Assembly (NCBI GenBank): GCA_944368925.1
Contig: CALVXG010000011.1
Span: 17,083-81,082 of the forward strand
Origin: an uncultured Clostridia bacterium
GTDB lineage: Bacteria > Bacillota > Clostridia > Christensenellales > Borkfalkiaceae
Reading direction: 5' to 3'
DNA: 64,000 bases
Each line of letters starts with the position of its first letter. Within the stretch, counting starts at the first letter, position 1. Positions 48,072-57,713 of the stretch are shown in pieces. The position numbers were made by a program, and so were the translations under genes. The notes under the pieces are model-generated. The model made no database searches. It saw only the letters and a program-made list of their open reading frames with translations, and was not told where the DNA came from.

Positions 48072-48990
48072 CTTCGCACCTCTCCTCTTTCCACTCTTTC
48101 CGCTTTCGGCTCGCACTTACGATCATCCATATCCCGAGCACGATCGTCAGCGCGCAGACGGCAAACCCCGTCACGGCGTTCAGAACGTTCATTTTGGCGT
48201 CGTCGCCTTCCGAAAAGACCGCAACGAGCGTCGTCTGCAAAGCGATCAGCGATACCGAAGCGTCCGTCAGATTGATATTGCGGAAACTTTGCAGCAAAGG
48301 ATCCTTGTATCTTCGCACCCTGACGAGATTGCGTACGGCGAACGCGACTTTATAAAAAGTATACGCCGCCGAGGCGATCGCCATGATCTGCGTGTGCACG
48401 GCAGGGCTTTCCGACTGCACCATCTGCGTGACGGCAGCCCCCAGCGCCGTTTCCAGCACCAACAGGGCGATGCCGCAGTTTCTGTACAGTTTCAGTTTTT
48501 CCGCATAGCTCTTTTTTTCGTCCGAGCCCGCTCTTTGCCTTATCCTGTACCCGCCGAACAATACGCCGAACCGAAGCCCGCTCAAAAACAGATAATACCC
48601 CGCCAGCGACGCGTACCAAACGGACATCGCCAGCACCGAAAGCACCGCGTTCAGCACCACGTATGCCGCGCTGATCACAAAAGAACACACCGCCAGCACG
48701 ATCGTCCTGTACCCGTAGTCGCGCAGAAGATTTTCCGTAAAGCGGTGTTTTTCGGCCCATGCCGTAAACGCCGCCTTAACCTTAGGCGCCATGCGCACCG
48801 CCGAATAGACCGTGTATGCCAAAAATACCGCCGCGCCCGCGTAGAGCGCGTATGAAAACGCCCCGAATCCGCCGACGGCCGCCGACGCGATCGCACCCGC
48901 GATCAAAAGGGCCGCAAGCACCCATGCCAAAACGCAAAACCAGAGCGGCGGGCTCTTTAAAAATTGTACAATCGCCCCCGCACGCTTCAT
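48055..48990 (-). CDS. Polytopic membrane protein of the two-component operon
   Basis: 311 residues with about eight membrane helices, grouped in pairs (first pair about 14-65, then about 92-150, 173-225 and 250-290). The start overlaps the histidine kinase stop as ATGA, and the end overlaps the next small gene. No known family motif is seen. By position it could be an accessory sensor for the kinase or an effector for the stress it senses. The C-terminal tail is strongly charged. Confidence 0.8.
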   Translation of the reverse strand: MKRAGAIVQFLKSPPLWFCVLAWVLAALLIAGAIASAAVGGFGAFSYALYAGAAVFLAYTVYSAVRMAPKVKAAFTAWAEKHRFTENLLRDYGYRTIVLAVCSFVISAAYVVLNAVLSVLAMSVWYASLAGYYLFLSGLRFGVLFGGYRIRQRAGSDEKKSYAEKLKLYRNCGIALLVLETALGAAVTQMVQSESPAVHTQIMAIASAAYTFYKVAFAVRNLVRVRRYKDPLLQSFRNINLTDASVSLIALQTTLVAVFSEGDDAKMNVLNAVTGFAVCALTIVLGIWMIVSASRKRKEWKEERCEDGREE

Positions 48991-50027
48991 GCGCTCTCCC
49001 CTTTCAATTTCACAATAAAAGTACTGCCTTTCCCCACTTCGCTTTCCACTGCGATCTCGCCGCCGAGTATGTCGATGACCTTTTTTACGAGCGACAGTCC
49101 GAGGCCGTTTCCCTCCTGCGCGTGCGAGGTCTCGCCCTGGTAAAATTTATCGAAGATATGCCGTCCCGTTTCCGCAGAAATTCCGCAGCCCGTGTCCGAA
49201 ATCTTTACCACCGCCTGCCCCCGCTCCGCGCGGACGCTGACCCCGATCTTCCCGCCCGATTCCGTGAATTTAATGGCATTGGAAAGAAGATTGTCCCAGA
49301 CGATCTCCAAAAAATCTGCATCGGACACGACGGTCACTTCTTCCAGATCGCATTCCGGAATCAGTCCCTTTTCGTCCATCTTTTCCTCGAACCGAAGCAG
49401 CGACTGCGCCAGCATTTCGTCTAAACGCACCTTCCCGTACTGCGGCGAAAGTTCCTGGTTTTCCAATTTGTTCAGTTTCAGAATGTTCGTCACCAGACCC
49501 GAAAGCCGCTTCGACGCCGATACGATCACCTGCGCGTAATGCCTGCGCGTTTCCGCGTCCAAATCTTCGCGCTGTATGGCCGCCGCATAGCTCTGCAAAA
49601 CGGAAAGCGGCGTCTTTAACTCGTGCGAAACGTTCGATATGAAATCGTTGTGCACGACTTCCGTCCGCGAAAGTTCCGCCGCCATCTTGTTGATATTGTC
49701 CGCGATCCGATCGTATTCGTCATACCTGCTATACGGATGCGCGACAAACACCCGCGCCGTAAAATCTCCCGACGCGATCTTCTGCGTCGCTTCCAGGATC
49801 CGCTCTGTCGGCCGCTCGACCGTGATCTTCCTGCGCACGGCGTCGATCACCGTGCATACGAGCGCCAAAAATGCGATCGTCACCAGCATCACGACCGACA
49901 GCACCCCTTTATTCCCGTCATATGCGGAGTTGACCGCATCAAAGACCATGATCGCAACCGTTATGATCGCCGCAATGGTCACAAACAGCACCGCGTACCC
50001 CGCCAACGAAAGAAACCGCTTTTTCAT
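48987..50027 (-). CDS. Membrane histidine kinase
   Basis: 346 residues. Two N-terminal helices (about 8-29 and 41-63) enclose a very short outer loop of about 10 residues. A HAMP-like linker follows, then the HisKA box SNVSHELKTPL with H135, and a HATPase domain with N box (DNLLSNAIKFTES), G1 (DTGCGIS) and G2 (GNGLGLSLVKK). With almost no external domain it probably senses through the membrane or through the adjoining membrane proteins. It is translated with the response regulator (ATGA overlap) and partners it. Confidence 0.96.
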   Translation of the reverse strand: MKKRFLSLAGYAVLFVTIAAIITVAIMVFDAVNSAYDGNKGVLSVVMLVTIAFLALVCTVIDAVRRKITVERPTERILEATQKIASGDFTARVFVAHPYSRYDEYDRIADNINKMAAELSRTEVVHNDFISNVSHELKTPLSVLQSYAAAIQREDLDAETRRHYAQVIVSASKRLSGLVTNILKLNKLENQELSPQYGKVRLDEMLAQSLLRFEEKMDEKGLIPECDLEEVTVVSDADFLEIVWDNLLSNAIKFTESGGKIGVSVRAERGQAVVKISDTGCGISAETGRHIFDKFYQGETSHAQEGNGLGLSLVKKVIDILGGEIAVESEVGKGSTFIVKLKGESA

Positions 50028-50695
50028 TTCAGCACCGCCTTGTAACCCAACCCGTGCACCGTCAGGATCTCAAACCCGCTGCACCCCGCCGTCTTTTCGC
50101 GAAGTTTGGACATATATACGTCCACCGTGCGCGACGTCGCCGACGAATCATAGTCCCAAAATTCCTCCATCAGCTGCGTGCGCGTGAACGTCCGCTTCGG
50201 ATACGAGAGCAGCTTGAAGAGAAGATCGAACTCCCGCACCGTCAGCGGAAGCTCCTGCCCGTTGACATACGCCGTGTGCTCTTGCTTGTCCATGCGCAGG
50301 TTCCCGACCGTCAGCTCGCGGCTCTTTTCGATCCCCGCGCGCCGCAGCAGCGCCCCCACCCGCAAGAGAAGTATGTCCGCATCGAACGGCTTTACCACGT
50401 AGTCGTCGATCCCGATCCCGTACCCCCTCTGCTTGGACGGCTTGTCGTCCAGTGCCGTCATGAACAGAATGGGCATCTGCGGATCCGCCCGACGCACCTC
50501 TTCCGCCAAAGAAAAGCCGTCTCTCCTGGGCATCATGATATCGCTGATGAGCATGTCGAAATTCCCCTCTTCCATGCGCCGCAACGCTTCCTCGCCGTCC
50601 GTACAAGCCACCGCTTCGTACCCGCTCCCGACCAGCAACGAACATACCAGTTCGTTCAGCGCACGATCGTCCTCCGCTACCAGTATCTTTACCAT
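50024..50695 (-). CDS. OmpR/PhoP-family response regulator
   Basis: 223 residues from the ATG at 50695, which has GAGGAG ahead. The receiver domain has acidic D9/D10, phospho-acceptor D52 in MLISDIMMP, LFMTALDD and the lysine of VVKPFDAD. The winged-helix DNA-binding domain (about 130-222) contains LTVREFDLLFKLLSYPKRTFTRTQLMEEFWDYD and ends VHGLGYKAVLK. It is the first gene of the operon. PhoP-box-like repeats lie in front of it and in front of 47454, suggesting autoregulation and control of the small membrane protein. Confidence 0.96.
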   Translation of the reverse strand: MVKILVAEDDRALNELVCSLLVGSGYEAVACTDGEEALRRMEEGNFDMLISDIMMPRRDGFSLAEEVRRADPQMPILFMTALDDKPSKQRGYGIGIDDYVVKPFDADILLLRVGALLRRAGIEKSRELTVGNLRMDKQEHTAYVNGQELPLTVREFDLLFKLLSYPKRTFTRTQLMEEFWDYDSSATSRTVDVYMSKLREKTAGCSGFEILTVHGLGYKAVLK

Positions 50696-50738
50696 GATCG
50701 CTTTCTCCTCACTTTTCCTTTCCATTTTACCGCATGCG

Positions 50739-50777
50739 TGTTTCCGTAACGATAAAAATTTGTTAAAAAATTGTAAA
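50739..50777 (-). promoter_or_regulatory. PhoP-box-like repeats ahead of the response regulator
   Basis: Minus strand TTTACA (50777-50772) and TTAACA (50766-50761), followed at the same 11-bp period by the degenerate TTATCG (50755-50750) and GAAACA (50744-50739). A TAAAAT (50729-50724) lies downstream. A second -10, TATAAT, is at 50812-50807. Confidence 0.55.
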
Positions 50778-50848
50778 TACTCCCGTCCTTTAGCCCTCTC
50801 CCTTCCATTATAACACAAACGCCGCAAAAAGCAACCCGAAGAAAAAAA

Positions 50849-50890: not shown

Positions 50891-51112
50891 TTACATTTTC
50901 TTTTGAATCATAGCCCACATGGCTTGGGCCGAATCGAAATTCACGGGAATAATGTCCGCAGGCGAAAGCTCCACGCCGAAGGTGTCGCCGATCTCCGCCA
51001 CGATCTCCATGATGTCCAAAGAATCGAGCACCCCCGCCCCGATCAGGCTCTCTTCCTTTTCAAAATCTACGTCAGGCCTGATCTCCTTCAAAAGTTTCAA
51101 CAGTTTTTCCAT
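50891..51112 (-). CDS. Acyl/aminoacyl carrier protein (DltC-like)
   Basis: 73 residues. The four-helix carrier fold is shown by the pantetheine site GVLDSLDIMEIV with Ser31, then DTFGVELSPADI. It starts inside the decarboxylase gene (16-nt overlap), so the two are translated together. In the dlt system DltC accepts the amino acid activated by DltA. Here the decarboxylase sits between ligase and carrier genes, so the carrier-bound amino acid may be decarboxylated before transfer. It is the last gene of the operon. Confidence 0.92.
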   Translation of the reverse strand: MEKLLKLLKEIRPDVDFEKEESLIGAGVLDSLDIMEIVAEIGDTFGVELSPADIIPVNFDSAQAMWAMIQKKM

Positions 51113-52296
51113 ACTACGTTCACTCCTTTTCTGTTTATTTTACTTGTTTCTATAAAATCTCTGAGAAGTTCCAGTTCTCCGCTTTCCGTCAGCCTGTATA
51201 TGCGCGGAAGCCGCCTGCTCAAAAACAATCCGATGCCCTCGGTCACCGAATACGCCCCCGCCTTTTCAAAAATCAGCATGTCGCCCGCGGCAACTCCCTG
51301 CAAAGGCAGGTTCTTTACCAAAACGTCCGCCGACGTACAGAGCGACCCGCATACCGTCCACGACGTCTGCGCATCTTCCGCCGTGTACGCCTGCGTTTCG
51401 GCGGCATCCGCCCTTTCACGGCGCAGAAACGGGTGCTTCATTCCCATCATCTGCCCGTAATAGTTCAGATGATGGATCCCGCCGTCCACGATGCAGAACC
51501 GATTCCCCTGCGTGCTCTTGGTGTCCACGATGCGCGTACAATATTCCCCGCACTCCGCCGCGAGAAACCGCCCCATTTCCAGCACGATTTCGCATTCTTC
51601 GGGAAGGGTGTCCAACAGCTCGCGGAATACGCCCAGCCTGTTTTCCTCTTCCTCCTCCCCGCAAAAATAGTTCACCCGAAGCCCGGGCCCGTATTCGATC
51701 CGACGTAACGGCGTGCCCGCCTGCGCCGCTTGCTCCGCAAACGCTTTCAGCTTACCGATCTCGCGCGCCACCGCTTCCGTCTTTTTCTGCGTACCCGAAT
51801 AATATTGCATTCCGAGTATCTGCGTGTACGAGCCCTCTTTCCGCGTGAGAATCGACGTGACCGTCGCCTCGTCCATTCCGAATTGGTTTCCGCAGGACAG
51901 ACGCAGCAAAACGGGCAGTCTGACCCCCTTCTCCCGCGCGAGCCGTTCGAGCAAATTCATCTGCGATACCGATTCCGCCGTGTAAACCGCTCGTTCACCG
52001 CATTCCCCGATCACCCGCACGACGTCCGCTTCCGCCTTGTACACCCCCGAAAGCACGATCTTCTCCGCCGCGATCCCCGCCGCACGGCAAATATCGTATT
52101 CGCCCGGCGAACATACTTCGAAAAAGTCCACCGCGTCCGCAAGCTCTTCCACAAAAAACGGGTTCGCTTTCACGGCAAAACAAATCTTCCGCGCCTCTCC
52201 CAGTGCCCGCCGCACCGACGCCACGCGGCCCTGCACGCCTTTCGAATCAAATACGTACGCGGGCGTCACGATCCCGCTCTTTTCATAATCCCGCAT
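51097..52296 (-). CDS. PLP-dependent amino acid decarboxylase (fold III, LysA/BtrK-like) in a Dlt-like operon
   Basis: 399 residues, start overlapping the ligase gene by 14 nt. The alanine-racemase-like barrel carries the PLP lysine in CFAVKANPF (K43), then FFEVCSPGEYDI and LRLSCGNQFGMDE. The C-terminal domain has the catalytic cysteine in CGSLCTSADVL and the KAGAYSVTEG segment. The family includes diaminopimelate, ornithine and lysine decarboxylases. BtrK of butirosin synthesis decarboxylates glutamate held on a carrier protein, and a relative with ligase and carrier genes occurs in exosortase-linked polysaccharide loci. A role in making the amine-bearing acyl group for the operon is the most direct reading. 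Confidence 0.88.
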   Translation of the reverse strand: MRDYEKSGIVTPAYVFDSKGVQGRVASVRRALGEARKICFAVKANPFFVEELADAVDFFEVCSPGEYDICRAAGIAAEKIVLSGVYKAEADVVRVIGECGERAVYTAESVSQMNLLERLAREKGVRLPVLLRLSCGNQFGMDEATVTSILTRKEGSYTQILGMQYYSGTQKKTEAVAREIGKLKAFAEQAAQAGTPLRRIEYGPGLRVNYFCGEEEEENRLGVFRELLDTLPEECEIVLEMGRFLAAECGEYCTRIVDTKSTQGNRFCIVDGGIHHLNYYGQMMGMKHPFLRRERADAAETQAYTAEDAQTSWTVCGSLCTSADVLVKNLPLQGVAAGDMLIFEKAGAYSVTEGIGLFLSRRLPRIYRLTESGELELLRDFIETSKINRKGVNVVWKNC

Positions 52297-53809
52297 CGAT
52301 ATATTTCTCCCTTAAATCTTTTCTGTCGATCTTGCCGTTTTCCGTCAGCTTAAAATCTTCCACCTGCACGCACTTTTGCGGCACCATGTAGGACGGAAGC
52401 CGCGCCCGCAGATAGACGCGGATCTGCGCAGGCAAAACCTGCCCCCGATAAAACCCAACAATCTTCTGCGCCGCCTTGTCGTACAGACAGACCGCCCTGC
52501 TCACCCCCGGCGCCGTCATCATCACGTTCTCGATCTCCGAAAGCTCGATCCTGTGCCCCTGGTGCTTGATCTGAAAATCTTTCCGGCCGATAAAACACAG
52601 GAGCCCCTCTTCGTCATAGTACCCGAGATCGCCCGTACGATAAACGGGCTCCGTATACGCCTTGTTCAGAGGATTCTGCACAAATACCTTCCGTGTCGCT
52701 TCCGCGTCGTTGTAATACCCCAGCGAAAGCGCCGTACCCGACACACAGATTTCCCCCGCTTCACGCACCGCCGTGACTTGCTTTCCATCCTCGCTCAGCA
52801 AAAATACCCGCTCGTTCGCAAACGGCTCCCCGATCGGAAGCGTCTCTTTTTCGTACAGACCCTTCCCGAGAATATAATACGTGCAGTTGCACGTAATCTC
52901 CGTCGGCCCGTACAGATTGACGAACATCGCTTCGGGCAAATGCTTCTTCCATACGTTCAGCTGTCTGATCGGCATCGCTTCGCCGCTGAACAAAACCTTT
53001 CGGATCCGCGAGGGAACTTTGTATTCAAATGCGTTCAGTGTCGAAAAGATGCAGAGCGCCGAAACCGCCCAGATCAGCACCGTCACCTCCCGCTCGATCA
53101 GATAATCGATTAGCATCGCGGGAAATGAAAACAACTTCTTCGGAAGGATCTGCATGGTCGCACCCGCCCGCAAAGTCGAATAAATATCCTTGACGGATAC
53201 GTCGAAATCGAAAGGCGCCTGGTTTCCGATCACTTCCTCCGCTCCGATTTCGAAACGCTCCGTAAATTCTTCGATAAAATCGATGACCGAACGGTGCGAC
53301 ACCGCGATCCCCTTCGGCGTACCCGTCGAACCCGACGTGAACATCACGTACAGCGGATCCGCGTCCGTATGCCTTCTGCGTATGCCGCGCAAAAGCTCCT
53401 CGCCCGCCTGCGCGCCCTCCTTGAGTCTTCCGATCGTGATCGCACGATCGCCCGCTTCCTGCGGAAGCAGCGCCTCGCATTTATCCTGCACCACGATCAG
53501 CGGCCTGCCCGTCTTCTCCCAGATCGCTTCCCTGCGCGCCACCGGATGCAGCGGATTGAGCGGCACGTAAAAACACCCCGCATACACGCACGCAAGAAAC
53601 GCCGTAACCGTATCCACGCTCTTTTCCCCGAGCACCGCCACAGGCTCGCGCGGATTTGTCCTCTGCAAAAGTCCCGCCGCCATGCGCTTTGCCTCTTGCT
53701 GCAAACGGGCGTACGTCACCGACTTCTCTTCGTCCGCAAACGCGATCTTGTTCGGATATTTCGCCGCGCTCGCCTCCAGATATTCCAAAACGTTTTTCAG
53801 CCGTTTCAC
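52283..53809 (-). CDS. AMP-forming amino acid:carrier protein ligase (DltA-like)
   Basis: 508 residues, the normal size for DltA. The start is a GTG at 53809, set by AAAGGAGGAAAGAA and by the GTGA overlap with the upstream stop. Motifs are LYVMFTSGSTGTPKG (phosphate loop), NQAPFDFDVSVKDIYSTL (as in DltA), NLYGPTEITC, YRTGDLGYYDEEGLL and the catalytic lysine in TENGKIDRKDL. The selectivity segment reads LFSGEAMP where Bacillus DltA has FCGE, so the cysteine known to help choose D-alanine is a serine. It should load an amino acid onto the carrier protein; D-alanine is doubtful. Confidence 0.92.
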   Translation of the reverse strand: MKRLKNVLEYLEASAAKYPNKIAFADEEKSVTYARLQQEAKRMAAGLLQRTNPREPVAVLGEKSVDTVTAFLACVYAGCFYVPLNPLHPVARREAIWEKTGRPLIVVQDKCEALLPQEAGDRAITIGRLKEGAQAGEELLRGIRRRHTDADPLYVMFTSGSTGTPKGIAVSHRSVIDFIEEFTERFEIGAEEVIGNQAPFDFDVSVKDIYSTLRAGATMQILPKKLFSFPAMLIDYLIEREVTVLIWAVSALCIFSTLNAFEYKVPSRIRKVLFSGEAMPIRQLNVWKKHLPEAMFVNLYGPTEITCNCTYYILGKGLYEKETLPIGEPFANERVFLLSEDGKQVTAVREAGEICVSGTALSLGYYNDAEATRKVFVQNPLNKAYTEPVYRTGDLGYYDEEGLLCFIGRKDFQIKHQGHRIELSEIENVMMTAPGVSRAVCLYDKAAQKIVGFYRGQVLPAQIRVYLRARLPSYMVPQKCVQVEDFKLTENGKIDRKDLREKYIDAGL

Positions 53810-54771
53810 TTCTTTCCTCCTTTTACCTTCCCTTCGTACCGCTTTAAATCTTCCTTCCAGTTCGCATACTCCGGATCTTCCCTGCGGTCTTCCAATGCGT
53901 ATTTCTCTTTCAGATGCCTGCCTATGTACTTGCTTACCTTCAGCGCCCCCGCATAATTGAGATGGTCGCCCTTGTCCCGCGTGTCCGTCTTCCAATCAAA
54001 CCCCAGCTCTTTGAACCGCTGGTTCAGATCGATAAACTCCAGACCGTGCTCCTGCGCATATGCGTTCACTGCGTTGTATCGGCTGCCGTCCCATAAAATC
54101 ACCGACGGCACTTCCAACAGCATCAGTTTGATCTCCCGCTCTTCGCACATCGTGCGGATCTCCTCCAACGCCTCCTTATGCTTTTTCCCGATCGAATACA
54201 CTTTGTCCGTCTTCGTAAATACCTTCTTCCCCGTGTACGGCCGCACCGCCGTATTGTAGAAAAATCCCTTGGTCGCGCTCCGCTCATGCTTCGGCCGCCG
54301 CGTAAACCAGTCCTTCCACCCCGCATGATTTTTCAGGATCGGAAACAATCCGTCAACGGCATGCCTGACCGAATTCGTCAGCACCGTCGTACTCTTATCA
54401 TAAAAAAGATGATCCACTTCCAATACCACAAGCTTCGGCGTCTGCACTTTCAGCAACGCCCGCAGCCATTGCGCCGATTCCCACGGCAGCTGCGCCGGCT
54501 GCGCACACGCGTACGACGTGAAGCCGTATTCCTTGTACATTTCCATCGGAGACAGGGCACTGTATACCCCGCTGTGCCCAAAAAACAACACGTCCAGGGT
54601 TTCGTCCGGCTCGTCAAACACCCGCATCGATTCCTGCGAACGCGTCTTCGACTGCCGCACCGGCGTCTTCGGCAGCACCAGATAGGATACCCCGTGCAAT
54701 ACCGCCAGCAAAAGCAGAAGAAATACCGCCGCTTTCAATACGTTCTTCGCCACAGACTTTTTTTGCAACAT
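53806..54771 (-). CDS. Membrane-anchored SGNH-type protein (DltD/AlgJ-like role)
   Basis: 321 residues, ATG at 54771 behind GAAGGAGAGGGCGCG. One N-terminal helix (about 13-33) places the rest outside. The SGNH blocks are VLFFGHSGVYSALSP (Ser nucleophile) and GDHLNYAGALKVSKYI (Asp and His). In dlt and alginate-acetylation operons a protein of this kind works with the MBOAT partner on the outer face to hand the acyl group to the polymer. It sits 16 nt after the MBOAT gene and overlaps the ligase start by 4 nt. Confidence 0.85.
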   Translation of the reverse strand: MLQKKSVAKNVLKAAVFLLLLLAVLHGVSYLVLPKTPVRQSKTRSQESMRVFDEPDETLDVLFFGHSGVYSALSPMEMYKEYGFTSYACAQPAQLPWESAQWLRALLKVQTPKLVVLEVDHLFYDKSTTVLTNSVRHAVDGLFPILKNHAGWKDWFTRRPKHERSATKGFFYNTAVRPYTGKKVFTKTDKVYSIGKKHKEALEEIRTMCEEREIKLMLLEVPSVILWDGSRYNAVNAYAQEHGLEFIDLNQRFKELGFDWKTDTRDKGDHLNYAGALKVSKYIGRHLKEKYALEDRREDPEYANWKEDLKRYEGKVKGGKK

Positions 54772-54787
54772 CGCGCCCTCTCCTTCC

Positions 54788-56326
54788 TCAGAAATTCCCG
54801 TATATGAAGGGTACCACCGAATACATATCGCCGTACGCCCCGAACAACACCAAAAATACCGCCACCGTTATGTAAGACGCCCACCGGACCGGGAGCACCG
54901 CCGCCGTGATCTTTCCGCGGATATCCACGCCCCGCTCTTTCATGATCCCTACGGCAAGCATCGCCGCTATCCCGATCAAGGCAATGATCCATTCCTTGTA
55001 GTCCAGCCCCAACGCAAACACCGACCCGCCGTACGGACGGAATACCGACGTCAACAGGTATATCCCGTCGCTCAGATTGTTCGCACCGAATATCGTCTCG
55101 CCGATGAGTATGATCAGAATCGTGCGCACATGCCGAAATACGCGAAGCGCGATATGATTTTGATCGATCTTTCCCTTTGCGTACAGTTTTTTGAACAGAG
55201 GCTCCGCCAGCATCCCTGCCGAAATGATCACAAAATAATACATTCCGTACACGATATACTTCCATTCCGGCCCGTGCCACAATCCGTTGCACACCCACAC
55301 CGCCAACAGCGCCACCAGCGTCGGCAGCATCTTCGTGAAATGGTTGCGCACCTTCTTTTTCAGCTTCGCCGCAGGCCCCGTCACGCGCGGCGACAGCGCC
55401 ACCGAGTAAAAAACGTATTCTTTCAGCCACGCCCCCAGCGTTATGTGCCAACGCTGCCAGAACTCCTGCGCACTCTTCGCAAAAAACGGCTGGCGGAAAT
55501 TTTCGGGCAGCCGTATCCCGAAAAGTTCCCCGCTCCCCAGCGCTATGTCGATAAACCCCGAAAAATCCGCGTACAGCTGTATCGTGTAACAGACCATGAA
55601 CAGTACGCTCGCGATCCCCGAATACGACGTGGGCGCGCCCCCGATCGTCTTGACCAACAGATATAACCTGTCCGCCACCACCATCTTCTTGAACAGCCCC
55701 CACACGATCCTCTGTACCCCGCGCATCATCCCCGCCGCGTCCGTGCCCTGTCCTTCCCACAGCATGCCCGACGTCTGATCATACCGACAGATCGGCCCTT
55801 CCAGAATCTGCGGGAAAAAACATAAGAACAAACAGATCCGCCCGAAATTTTTTTCCGCCGCGTATTTGCCGCGGTGTATGTCCACCATGTACCCGATCGC
55901 CGACAACGTATAAAACGAAATGCCCAGCGGCAATGCCAGCCGCAACAGAGGAATTTCTGCCTTCAACCCGAACAGCGCCAGCAACGAAGCAAACGTCTGC
56001 CCGAAAAAATTGTAGTACTTCAAAACCCCGATCAGCGCAAGATTGAATAAGATCGTCAGCACTACCGCCGTCTTGTTCCGCTTTTTTAAAGACTTCTTCT
56101 CTTCTTCCCCCGCATCTTCCCGCACCGGCCGTATCCAAAACCGCGCCGCAAGATATACGCTCAGCGCCGTCGCAAGAAGAAATACGATCAGATATGTACT
56201 GATCAGCACATAAAACAGCAGACTGAACGACAAAAGTACGATCCATCTCCCCCGCTTCGGTACAAGATAATATACGGCAACCGCCGCCAACAATACCCCG
56301 AAAAAAATCAACATAACTGTGTTCAT
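54788..56326 (-). CDS. MBOAT-family membrane acyltransferase (DltB/AlgI-like)
   Basis: 512 residues with about eleven membrane segments. MBOAT marks are FFPQILEGPICRY, the loop AQEFWQRWHITLGAWLKEYVF and the catalytic histidine in CNGLWHGPEWKYIVYG. In this family DltB passes D-alanine from DltC across the membrane and AlgI/PatA pass acetyl groups. With the carrier protein and ligase in the same operon a DltB-like transfer of an aminoacyl group is expected. The start ATG at 56326 directly follows the U-tract of a terminator hairpin, and the only ribosome-site candidates lie in the hairpin arm. Confidence 0.93.
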   Translation of the reverse strand: MNTVMLIFFGVLLAAVAVYYLVPKRGRWIVLLSFSLLFYVLISTYLIVFLLATALSVYLAARFWIRPVREDAGEEEKKSLKKRNKTAVVLTILFNLALIGVLKYYNFFGQTFASLLALFGLKAEIPLLRLALPLGISFYTLSAIGYMVDIHRGKYAAEKNFGRICLFLCFFPQILEGPICRYDQTSGMLWEGQGTDAAGMMRGVQRIVWGLFKKMVVADRLYLLVKTIGGAPTSYSGIASVLFMVCYTIQLYADFSGFIDIALGSGELFGIRLPENFRQPFFAKSAQEFWQRWHITLGAWLKEYVFYSVALSPRVTGPAAKLKKKVRNHFTKMLPTLVALLAVWVCNGLWHGPEWKYIVYGMYYFVIISAGMLAEPLFKKLYAKGKIDQNHIALRVFRHVRTILIILIGETIFGANNLSDGIYLLTSVFRPYGGSVFALGLDYKEWIIALIGIAAMLAVGIMKERGVDIRGKITAAVLPVRWASYITVAVFLVLFGAYGDMYSVVPFIYGNF

Positions 56327-56383
56327 AAAAAAACCGCCGTCCTCATGTGTTTCTACTTACTAAACACACGAGGACGGCGGTTT
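56327..56383 (-). terminator. Long terminator hairpin touching the MBOAT start
   Basis: 22-bp stem with one mismatch (56331-56352 with 56362-56383), 9-nt loop, then seven U on the minus strand that run into the ATG at 56326. It ends the anti-sigma gene transcript or acts as an attenuator for the Dlt-like operon. Confidence 0.85.
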
Positions 56384-56394
56384 GTCCACCAAAT

Positions 56395-57126
56395 TTAAAA
56401 ACTTTTTACAACTTCTTCCAGTATATCGTACAACAACGGCTCCTCCGCCGTATAAATTACCATGTAATATTGATAAATATCGTATTCAAAATAAATGTAA
56501 GTCTGACTCTTTTCCCGGTTTACGTCAATGTATAAAATAAGCTCGTCCGTTTCATAATCGTCGCTGCCGTCCGCATAGTCCTCCAGATCTTCCAGCTGAA
56601 AACCGTCCGACTCGATCAGCAGATCTACCTCCACACCGTACGATTCATACTGCACATAGTACAGAACGATGTCCCCTTCGTACTCGTCATAATACGGTGA
56701 TTCCTCGTTCAGCCCGAATTCGTCGTAGCGGTTGACCGAATCTTCCGACACAAACGGCAGAAAATCTTTCTTCTCGTACGAAGCCGTATTCGTCACCTTG
56801 TTCAGCTGCGACCAGTTCAACACGATCTTCTTCGACGTGAACGCCTGCGCCAAAAATAACCACAGCACCAGCAATACCGCACACCCGAAGACCGCCGCCA
56901 ATATCACCGTCTCCCTCTTGCGCCGCCGCGTCATGTGCCCGAATGATCCCGTCTTGCCCGCATTTCCCGCTGCCAACGGCTCCGCTTCCTGCACGGGTTC
57001 CTTCTCCGCGGCAGAATTTAACAGCGCCTCCCGCGCTTTCTCCGTCACCCTGCGATCGGGCGCCTTCCCCTCCGCCAGATAGGCACCGAATAATTTATCC
57101 AGTTGTTGCACTTTCTGTCTTTTCAT
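56395..57126 (-). CDS. Single-pass membrane protein, probable anti-sigma factor
   Basis: 243 residues, ATG at 57126 after GAGGGGAAG. The cytoplasmic N-terminal part (about 1-70) is charged and helical (LDKLFGAYLAEGKAPDRRVTEKAREAL). One membrane helix follows (about 75-95), then an outer domain rich in Asp, Glu and Tyr (about 100-243). This is the usual plan of an anti-sigma factor next to its ECF sigma gene, 35 nt upstream. It lacks a ZAS zinc motif. The outer acidic domain may sense wall state or cationic compounds; this is inference. Confidence 0.7.
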   Translation of the reverse strand: MKRQKVQQLDKLFGAYLAEGKAPDRRVTEKAREALLNSAAEKEPVQEAEPLAAGNAGKTGSFGHMTRRRKRETVILAAVFGCAVLLVLWLFLAQAFTSKKIVLNWSQLNKVTNTASYEKKDFLPFVSEDSVNRYDEFGLNEESPYYDEYEGDIVLYYVQYESYGVEVDLLIESDGFQLEDLEDYADGSDDYETDELILYIDVNREKSQTYIYFEYDIYQYYMVIYTAEEPLLYDILEEVVKSF

Positions 57127-57161: not shown

Positions 57162-57713
57162 TTACTTGTTTTTGTCCACACCTTTTTCCAAACTTCTTTT
57201 CATCTGCTCTTCCGCTTTCACGATTACCTTCGATACGTACGACTTGGACTTACCCAGTTCCTTGCCGATCTCCCGCACCGTCATATCCAGAAAATATTTC
57301 CTGTATATCATTTCCCGCATCTCTTCGCTCAGCTCACCCATCAGCTGCTCCACAAGCACCGCCGTCTCCGTCTTTTCTTCAAAACTGCACGCCGCCGCCC
57401 CCTCAAATTCCCGCAGCTCCTGCCACGTCCTGCCCGCACTGCTCTTCCTGTGGTTCAATGCCGTGTTCCGCACTATACGGCACACCCACGCATACCCGTT
57501 CGTCCCGCCGCGGTACTGCCGTATGTTCATGACAACTTTCAGCAGACTCTCCTGCACGACATCTTCCGCCGTATGCGCGTCGTGAACGACTCCGTTCGCA
57601 ACAAAAAGCATCACCCTGCCCATCACACGATACAGCGTCTCTATGCCCTCTTCCTGCTTCAAACGGATCTGCTCCAGCGCGTATTCAATTTCTTTGCGTG
57701 CCTGTCGATCCAT
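57162..57713 (-). CDS. ECF-type RNA polymerase sigma factor
   Basis: 183 residues. Region 2 is seen in AEDVVQESLLKVVMNIRQYRGGTNGYAWVCRIVRNTALNHRK, and region 4 in EEMREMIYRKYFLDMTVREIGKELGKSKSYVSKVIVKAEEQMKR. It pairs with the single-pass membrane protein that follows. It may control the Dlt-like operon downstream, since ECF factors often govern cell-envelope charge genes in Bacillota. The ribosome site is weak. 57714-57838 holds no gene that I can support. Confidence 0.9.
   Translation of the reverse strand: MDRQARKEIEYALEQIRLKQEEGIETLYRVMGRVMLFVANGVVHDAHTAEDVVQESLLKVVMNIRQYRGGTNGYAWVCRIVRNTALNHRKSSAGRTWQELREFEGAAACSFEEKTETAVLVEQLMGELSEEMREMIYRKYFLDMTVREIGKELGKSKSYVSKVIVKAEEQMKRSLEKGVDKNK

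Follow-up and report, generated by a model that had tools for sequence, protein, structure and literature searches.

What is an amino acid decarboxylase doing in an operon that otherwise resembles dlt? The question is raised by a stretch of 64,000 nucleotides (the window) from contig CALVXG010000011.1 of an uncultured Clostridia bacterium, whose assembly comprises 2.7 Mb and is 93.7% complete. On the minus strand, from 56326 to 50891, this window carries in the order of transcription genes for an MBOAT acyltransferase, an SGNH protein, an adenylation ligase, a decarboxylase dependent on pyridoxal phosphate (PLP) and a carrier protein. The answer that we favor, with a probability of about 0.66, is that an acidic amino acid is loaded through its side-chain carboxyl, decarboxylated while bound to the carrier and exported to a surface polymer as a beta- or omega-amino acyl ester.

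Gene content of the operon

The five genes, all on the minus strand, are as follows.

54788..56326, minus strand: MBOAT acyltransferase, DltB/PatA-like, 512 amino acids (PF03062, 55 bits; TIGR04091 (DltB), 153 bits)
53806..54771, minus strand: SGNH-fold transferase, DltD-like, 321 amino acids (AlphaFold2 model and PDB matches)
52283..53809, minus strand: stand-alone adenylation ligase, 508 amino acids (PF00501; TIGR01733, 349 bits)
51097..52296, minus strand: fold-III PLP decarboxylase of the BtrK/TIGR03099 type, 399 amino acids (TIGR03099, 174 bits)
50891..51112, minus strand: acyl/peptidyl carrier protein, 73 amino acids (PF00550, 33 bits)

The MBOAT and SGNH genes are separated by a 16-base gap, the stop codon of the SGNH gene overlaps the GTG start of the ligase gene (GTGA), and the ligase and decarboxylase genes overlap by 14 bases, the decarboxylase and carrier genes by 16. 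From our reading of the sequence, the GTG at 53809 is most likely the start of the ligase. The original prediction, made from the letters of the window, had described five overlapping or closely spaced genes at this place, and they were found as claimed. Its reading of the set as an aminoacylation operon of the Dlt kind that includes a BtrK-type decarboxylase is supported. Within the window, nothing reached the gathering score of Rfam and no tRNA was found.

Co-occurrence and distribution

The named-genome sample consists of the best-scoring 80 of at least 557 confirmed decarboxylase relatives, retrieved with two peptide patterns, and is not an unbiased one. The decarboxylase is present in 80/80 of these loci, and all five genes lie on one strand within 7 kb in 61 of them, belonging to Lachnospiraceae, Oscillospiraceae, Erysipelotrichaceae and Coriobacteria. 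The order ligase-decarboxylase-carrier-MBOAT-SGNH prevails (48 of the 61), the order of the window, MBOAT-SGNH-ligase-decarboxylase-carrier, is found in 12, and one locus has another order. Given this co-location, the grouping of the five genes is not due to chance. Among the remaining 19 loci, a contig end falls inside or beside the set in eight (L019, L043, L050, L057, L059, L068, L075, and L089), no ligase was detected in L035 and no carrier in L067. The contigs of L020 and L023 are apparently identical to those of L012 and L014, two loci outside the 80.

In the family of the window, the complete order MBOAT-SGNH-ligase-decarboxylase-carrier was found in L010, L012, and L015, and up to the contig limit in L013 and L014. 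Incomplete copies also occur in related genomes, with a truncated ligase in L011 and genes partly missing in L016 and L017; these may reflect decay or assembly faults. From the phylum, 398 genomes were also drawn independently, including that of the window, and gave three other decarboxylase matches (E <= 1e-50): L169 with five genes, L170 with four and an unmatched gene of 349 amino acids nearby, and L171 with the ligase, decarboxylase and carrier alone (hereafter the trio). The MBOAT gene adjoins the trio in two of these three. Relatives were found in 22 plasmid records (E <= 1e-30; Sinorhizobium 19, Streptomyces 3), with 28-31% identity in the 15 listed, while none of the three pattern matches from one scan of viral contigs was confirmed as a decarboxylase relative.

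The decarboxylase

The best NCBIfam model for the decarboxylase was TIGR03099 (174 bits, cut-off 478.45), and the LysA model TIGR01048 gave 144 bits (cut-off 297.9); neither cut-off was passed. Among solved proteins BtrK ranked first (E 3.8e-26), followed by 6knh/6knk and then LysA. According to excerpts of PMC7857480, 6knk is SbnH, and BtrK, SbnH, AcsE, FigC, and MccE, whose substrates for decarboxylation are residues joined to larger groups, form one clade with diaminopimelate decarboxylase and D-ornithine decarboxylase. The PLP-binding Lys43 and Cys320 (in GSLCT) are conserved in 80/80 decarboxylases. The operon enzyme and BtrK have the stretches QFGMDE, GTQ, GxLCT, and GGxHH in common, where nine LysA rows carry HIGSQ, GGMxDNxR, and CCESGD instead.

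In a tree of 44 proteins, built by a quick method and with two long branches flagged, the nine LysA rows split off with a support of 100, and the relatives from S. meliloti and from two Streptomyces fell on the side of the operon enzymes. Decarboxylases from loci with and without MBOAT are intermingled in this tree (five changes of the MBOAT label), so either the trio has swapped partners repeatedly or the tree does not resolve this part.

Two other identities were considered and rejected. A housekeeping LysA is ruled out by the true LysA (459 bits) on another contig of the same genome, by the absence of the LysA signature stretches, by the tree split and by the score of 144 bits below the cut-off; the separate LysA and the signature residues also speak against a housekeeping role on free diaminopimelate, which the original prediction had held out as an alternative. 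An alanine racemase was suggested by the Pfam N-terminal model (37 bits, cut-off 24), but the decarboxylase models scored 57 and 54 bits and Cys320 is invariant. The enzyme is most likely of the BtrK type, and is predicted to use a carrier-bound substrate.

The ligase and its pocket

The ligase passed the generic adenylation model TIGR01733 (349 bits, cut-off 317) and scored 303 bits with the DltA model TIGR01734, below the cut-off of 560 (559.85). Its structure model has a predicted local distance difference test score (pLDDT) of 87, with GrsA and DltA among the top PDB matches. The pocket residues, in what we take to be GrsA numbering by motif alignment, are Asp233, Asp235, Val236, Lys239, Ser300, Gly301, Cys330, and Asn331. 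Ligase rows were available for 79 of the 80 loci, with L075 and L080 gapped at pocket positions. Asp233 and Lys239 are each found in 76 of the 77 ligases that have letters at these positions, and Ser300 is found in 77/78; the lone exception (L057) is a ligase that does not adjoin its decarboxylase. By comparison, nine DltA-like ligases (four listed above the DltA cut-off, one more listed so only together with its neighbors in the frame, and four not) have Ser233, Met or Leu at 239, and Cys300 in 8/9. In excerpts of PMC9338922, the DltA cysteine at the position of Ser300 is tied to D-alanine selectivity and Asp198, equivalent to Asp235 here, contacts the D-alanyl adenylate.

A canonical DltA is thus ruled out by 303 versus 560 bits and by a pocket unlike that of the nine DltA-like ligases, and the pocket likewise disfavors the ligase restricted to D-alanine that had been envisaged at the outset as a counter-explanation. 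Lys239 points to an acidic amino acid as the probable substrate. Tyr233 stands in four relatives whose loci yielded no decarboxylase, with Lys239 in L132 and L134 and Leu239 in the other two; L134, at locus L168, has an Asn-synthase-like protein and an Asp/Glu racemase encoded beside it. Asp233 thus accompanies the decarboxylase, which suggests a moved amine, as would be expected if the side-chain carboxyl is activated.

The exporter proteins and the carrier

The match of the MBOAT protein to TIGR04091 covers residues 9-414, at 153 bits below the DltB cut-off of 375, and the protein extends about 100 residues beyond it, as expected for the type with a fused shuttle. Its C-terminus is FIYGNF (Tyr509), the motif of the PatA/DltX acyl shuttle. 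A C-terminal Y-x-x-[F/Y] is found in 62/64 MBOATs from the 80 loci, 31 of them with F-x-Y-x-x-F and 31 with another first residue; of the two without it, one is a fragment (L074) and one is split between two frames (L082). His351 (GLWHG) is present in all 62 rows with letters, the other 2 of 64 being gapped. Excerpts of PMC12148441 describe acylation of the motif tyrosine in PatA and report the same role for DltX. By its sequence, the operon MBOAT is predicted to carry its own acyl-shuttle tyrosine.

No Pfam match was obtained for the SGNH protein. Its AlphaFold2 model (pLDDT 91.8, from 38 sequences) has an SGNH fold, and among PDB entries at E <= 0.001 the SGNH hydrolases came first, with DltD (6pfx) at rank 26 (E 1e-4). 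A membrane-type helix lies at its N-terminus, and the residues Ser67 (64/64 rows), His270 (63/64), and Asp266 (62/64) are conserved. The carrier matched PF00550 (33 bits), with 30 bits for AmcB and 24 bits for DltC, both below their cut-offs, and Ser31, the phosphopantetheine serine, is present in 74/74 rows.

Relation to D-alanylation in the same genomes

No ligase at the DltA cut-off was found in the genome of the window or in any of 18 named isolates picked from the five-gene loci, where the best match reached 330 of 560 bits. Some DltA-like ligases used for comparison fall just below this cut-off (529-549 bits), and the wide gap in score therefore weighs more than the cut-off itself. The operon MBOAT is the only one found in the genome of the window. 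Judging by these searches, the operon apparently stands where dlt would in the genomes examined.

Proposed pathway and alternatives

From the observed gene content, gene order, residues and family placement we infer a substrate, decarboxylation on the carrier, export and an acceptor as follows. The ligase would adenylate Asp or Glu and load the carrier via the side-chain carboxyl, so that neither the alpha-amino nor the alpha-carboxyl group is bound. Removal of the alpha-carboxyl by the BtrK-type enzyme would then give beta-alanyl-carrier if the residue is Asp, which we prefer, or gamma-aminobutyryl-carrier if it is Glu. At the outer face of the membrane, the MBOAT protein would move the acyl group to the tyrosine of its own C-terminal FIYGNF, from which the SGNH protein would transfer it to a hydroxyl on lipoteichoic acid or on another polysaccharide of the surface, adding positive charge. 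Beta-alanine is our first guess for the product and somewhat more likely than gamma-aminobutyrate (GABA), the example given in the original prediction, since GABA thioesters tend to lactamise and no protecting enzyme was seen in the operon; the butirosin pathway uses an extra glutamyl cap. Loading of 3-methylaspartate on a carrier and its decarboxylation there are described for VinN/VinL/VinO in excerpts of PMC11284099, in which VinN also takes L-Asp at low efficiency and FlvN is listed for Asp.

Several findings weigh against this pathway. The other nine of the 19 loci without all five genes (L049, L062, L072, L074, L076, L077, L078, L081, and L087) have the decarboxylase and the ligase without a full MBOAT, L074 retaining a fragment of 57 bits. 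The original prediction would have been undermined by a decarboxylase kept apart from the other genes; this is not the case in the 61 complete loci, and these nine go part of the way toward it. The operon is also patchy in the window's own family, with the decarboxylase in 9/201 genomes (E <= 1e-20, own genome included). Asp235, whose counterpart in DltA (Asp198) contacts the adenylate and holds the alpha-amine, is kept, and this is compatible with loading through the alpha-carboxyl. In S. meliloti, the ligase of a comparable trio has a different pocket, and at L168 no carrier matched the profile, so that the racemase there is only indirect support. As to the acceptor, the LtaS-like protein encoded in the genome is a weak match (E 5e-5 over 70 residues), and a search of the genome for PF04464 glycerophosphotransferases gave none; lipoteichoic acid is therefore only a possible acceptor.

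Gene content alone does not discriminate between the proposed pathway and one in which beta-alanine is first made from free Asp, or GABA from free Glu, and the ligase then acts on this finished product, with nothing decarboxylated on the carrier. There is a precedent in a macrolactam pathway, where IdnL3 decarboxylates free beta-glutamate before loading (excerpts of PMC11284099). BtrK and VinO, however, use carrier-bound substrates, and the conserved Lys239 would fit a carboxylate that the finished product lacks, so we consider this order of events unlikely. The retention of Asp235, together with the presence of diaminopimelate decarboxylase in the published BtrK clade (excerpts of PMC7857480), would also suit the loading of a diaminopimelate-like residue via one alpha-carboxyl and its decarboxylation at the distal end, which would place a lysyl group on the polymer; yet the operon enzymes shown lack GGMxDNxR and CCES, which the nine LysA rows have, and a lysyl product appears very unlikely.

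A variant that overlaps with the favored pathway follows it as far as the aminoacyl carrier and has a capsule, a glycolipid or a secondary wall polysaccharide as the acceptor. MBOAT-SGNH pairs modify many polymers (excerpts of PMC12148441), and both the trio loci in capsule-type clusters that lack MBOAT and the missing PF04464 protein fit such an acceptor, whereas the LtaS-like protein, weakly matched as it is, and the lack of DltA above the cut-off in the operon genomes searched do not; taken by itself, it is even less probable than the lysyl product. Least probable of all is an ordinary D-alanylation operon with a decarboxylase that is functionally unrelated or serves lysine or polyamine synthesis. 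The overall Dlt-like gene set and a ligase fold near that of DltA would agree with it, but the ligase score, its pocket, the true LysA elsewhere and the decarboxylase within the set in 61/80 loci leave it only a slim chance.

Comparison with known systems

Like DltABCD(X), the operon combines ligase, carrier, MBOAT and SGNH genes, and it shares with that system the ligase and SGNH folds and the logic of a tyrosine shuttle. It differs by the added decarboxylase, by the ligase pocket, by a shuttle motif on the MBOAT itself instead of on a separate DltX, and by a ligase, MBOAT and carrier that all score below the Dlt model cut-offs. PatA/PatB-type MBOAT-SGNH pairs have the same C-terminal FxYxxF-type shuttle on the MBOAT and a separate SGNH partner, but their donor is acetyl-CoA, whereas a carrier-bound amino acid is expected here.

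VinN/VinL/VinO, and FlvN, of the beta-amino acid macrolactams provide a stand-alone ligase, a carrier and a PLP decarboxylase, of which the Vin enzyme uses the carrier-bound acid. Their product enters a polyketide, while the trio of the window is accompanied by MBOAT and SGNH genes. For BtrI/BtrJ/BtrK of butirosin, the similarity lies in the decarboxylase, BtrK being nearest to that of the window, and in the precedent of glutamyl-carrier converted to GABA-carrier; loading there is by BtrJ, an ATP-grasp ligase, rather than by an adenylation domain, and there is no surface export. The exosortase-A-associated TIGR03098/TIGR03099 proteins are the same ligase-decarboxylase pair, and TIGR03099 is the best model for the window decarboxylase, although at 174 bits versus a cut-off of 478. 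The parts and the logic of on-carrier decarboxylation are thus known already; searches of the open-licence literature aimed at the operon or its trio, judged by listings and the openings of abstracts, gave no paper that describes it or that reports these elements combined in a widespread operon of the envelope.

Through D-alanylation, bacteria adjust the charge of their wall, their resistance to cationic peptides and their signalling to the host. If the proposed pathway is true for gut Lachnospiraceae and their neighbors, dlt would be the wrong basis for describing their surface. On chemical grounds, a beta-alanyl or GABA ester would have a more basic amine and be more stable than the D-alanine ester. 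Beta-alanyl and alanyl groups are equal in mass, so mass-based surveys could have recorded the former as alanine. The operon would link on-carrier decarboxylation, a trick of natural-product pathways, with export machinery of the cell envelope. At about even odds, taken jointly, this is a widespread pathway of gut Clostridia and Coriobacteria that replaces D-alanylation with beta- or omega-amino acyl groups and is one branch of a modular Dlt-like class, whose surface-charge chemistry is set by a tailoring enzyme encoded next to the ligase (the decarboxylase here, a GNAT protein at L165, and an Asp/Glu racemase with an amidotransferase at L168).

The trio and Dlt-like variants at other loci

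The nine loci without a full MBOAT imply that the trio can serve other acceptors. It is part of capsule-type clusters at L087, L077 and L081. At L087, it lies among genes for a sugar transferase, DegT aminotransferases, glycosyltransferases and EpsG; it is found beside GtrII in L077 and L081, with DegT in L077 and with WcbI-domain proteins in L049. In L087 and L077, the trio perhaps acylates amino sugars made by the neighboring DegT aminotransferases. The neighbors at L076 are similar in size to those of the capsule-type trio clusters. On pSymB of S. meliloti, the TIGR03098/TIGR03099 pair lies among glycosyltransferases, with no MBOAT or SGNH protein listed in the 15-kb stretch. An unannotated carrier-like stretch (LDSF), split over two frames, follows the pSymB decarboxylase (L141:8128-8455). 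It thus appears that the trio is a module that produces an aminoacyl carrier and is coupled here to an MBOAT-SGNH exporter.

Other combinations were seen as well. L165:1791-8613 holds a ligase, a GNAT-domain gene in the slot of the decarboxylase, a carrier, an MBOAT and a polysaccharide deacetylase-domain protein of 600 amino acids, and Lys239 is present in the ligase of L164, its sister locus (ligase read as L132). At L168:345-7179, an MBOAT, an SGNH protein, the Asn-synthase-like protein, the Asp/Glu racemase and the ligase with Lys239 stand in a row, perhaps as another system for decoration with acidic amino acids.

Flanking elements and possible regulation

The elements that flank the operon are as follows.

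57162-57713, minus strand: extracytoplasmic function (ECF) sigma factor, upstream of the operon, possible regulator
56395-57126, minus strand: membrane-type protein, 243 amino acids, upstream of the operon, possible regulator
56331..56383, minus strand: terminator-like hairpin of 22 base pairs, possible attenuator, its T-run touching the MBOAT start codon
50845..50884, no strand assigned (listed on the plus strand): GC-rich palindromic hairpin of 16 pairs at the 3' end of the operon, possible transcription end
48987-50827, minus strand: response regulator and histidine kinase of the two-component type, immediately downstream of the operon

The upstream hairpin was present in 5/9 loci read, with one copy in the genome by exact pattern, and GGCGG in its 3' arm is a possible ribosome site. 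In the alignment of the five sequences, 96.4% of cells pair and 4/22 pairs are changed on both sides, a number reached by 11/500 shuffles. The covariation score was reached by 0/500 shuffles and the number of further pair types by 127/500, and slid versions of the alignment gave no double changes. The ECF sigma factor and the protein of 243 amino acids also lie upstream of the operon in L010, L012, and L015, and a sigma/anti-sigma control of the operon is possible.

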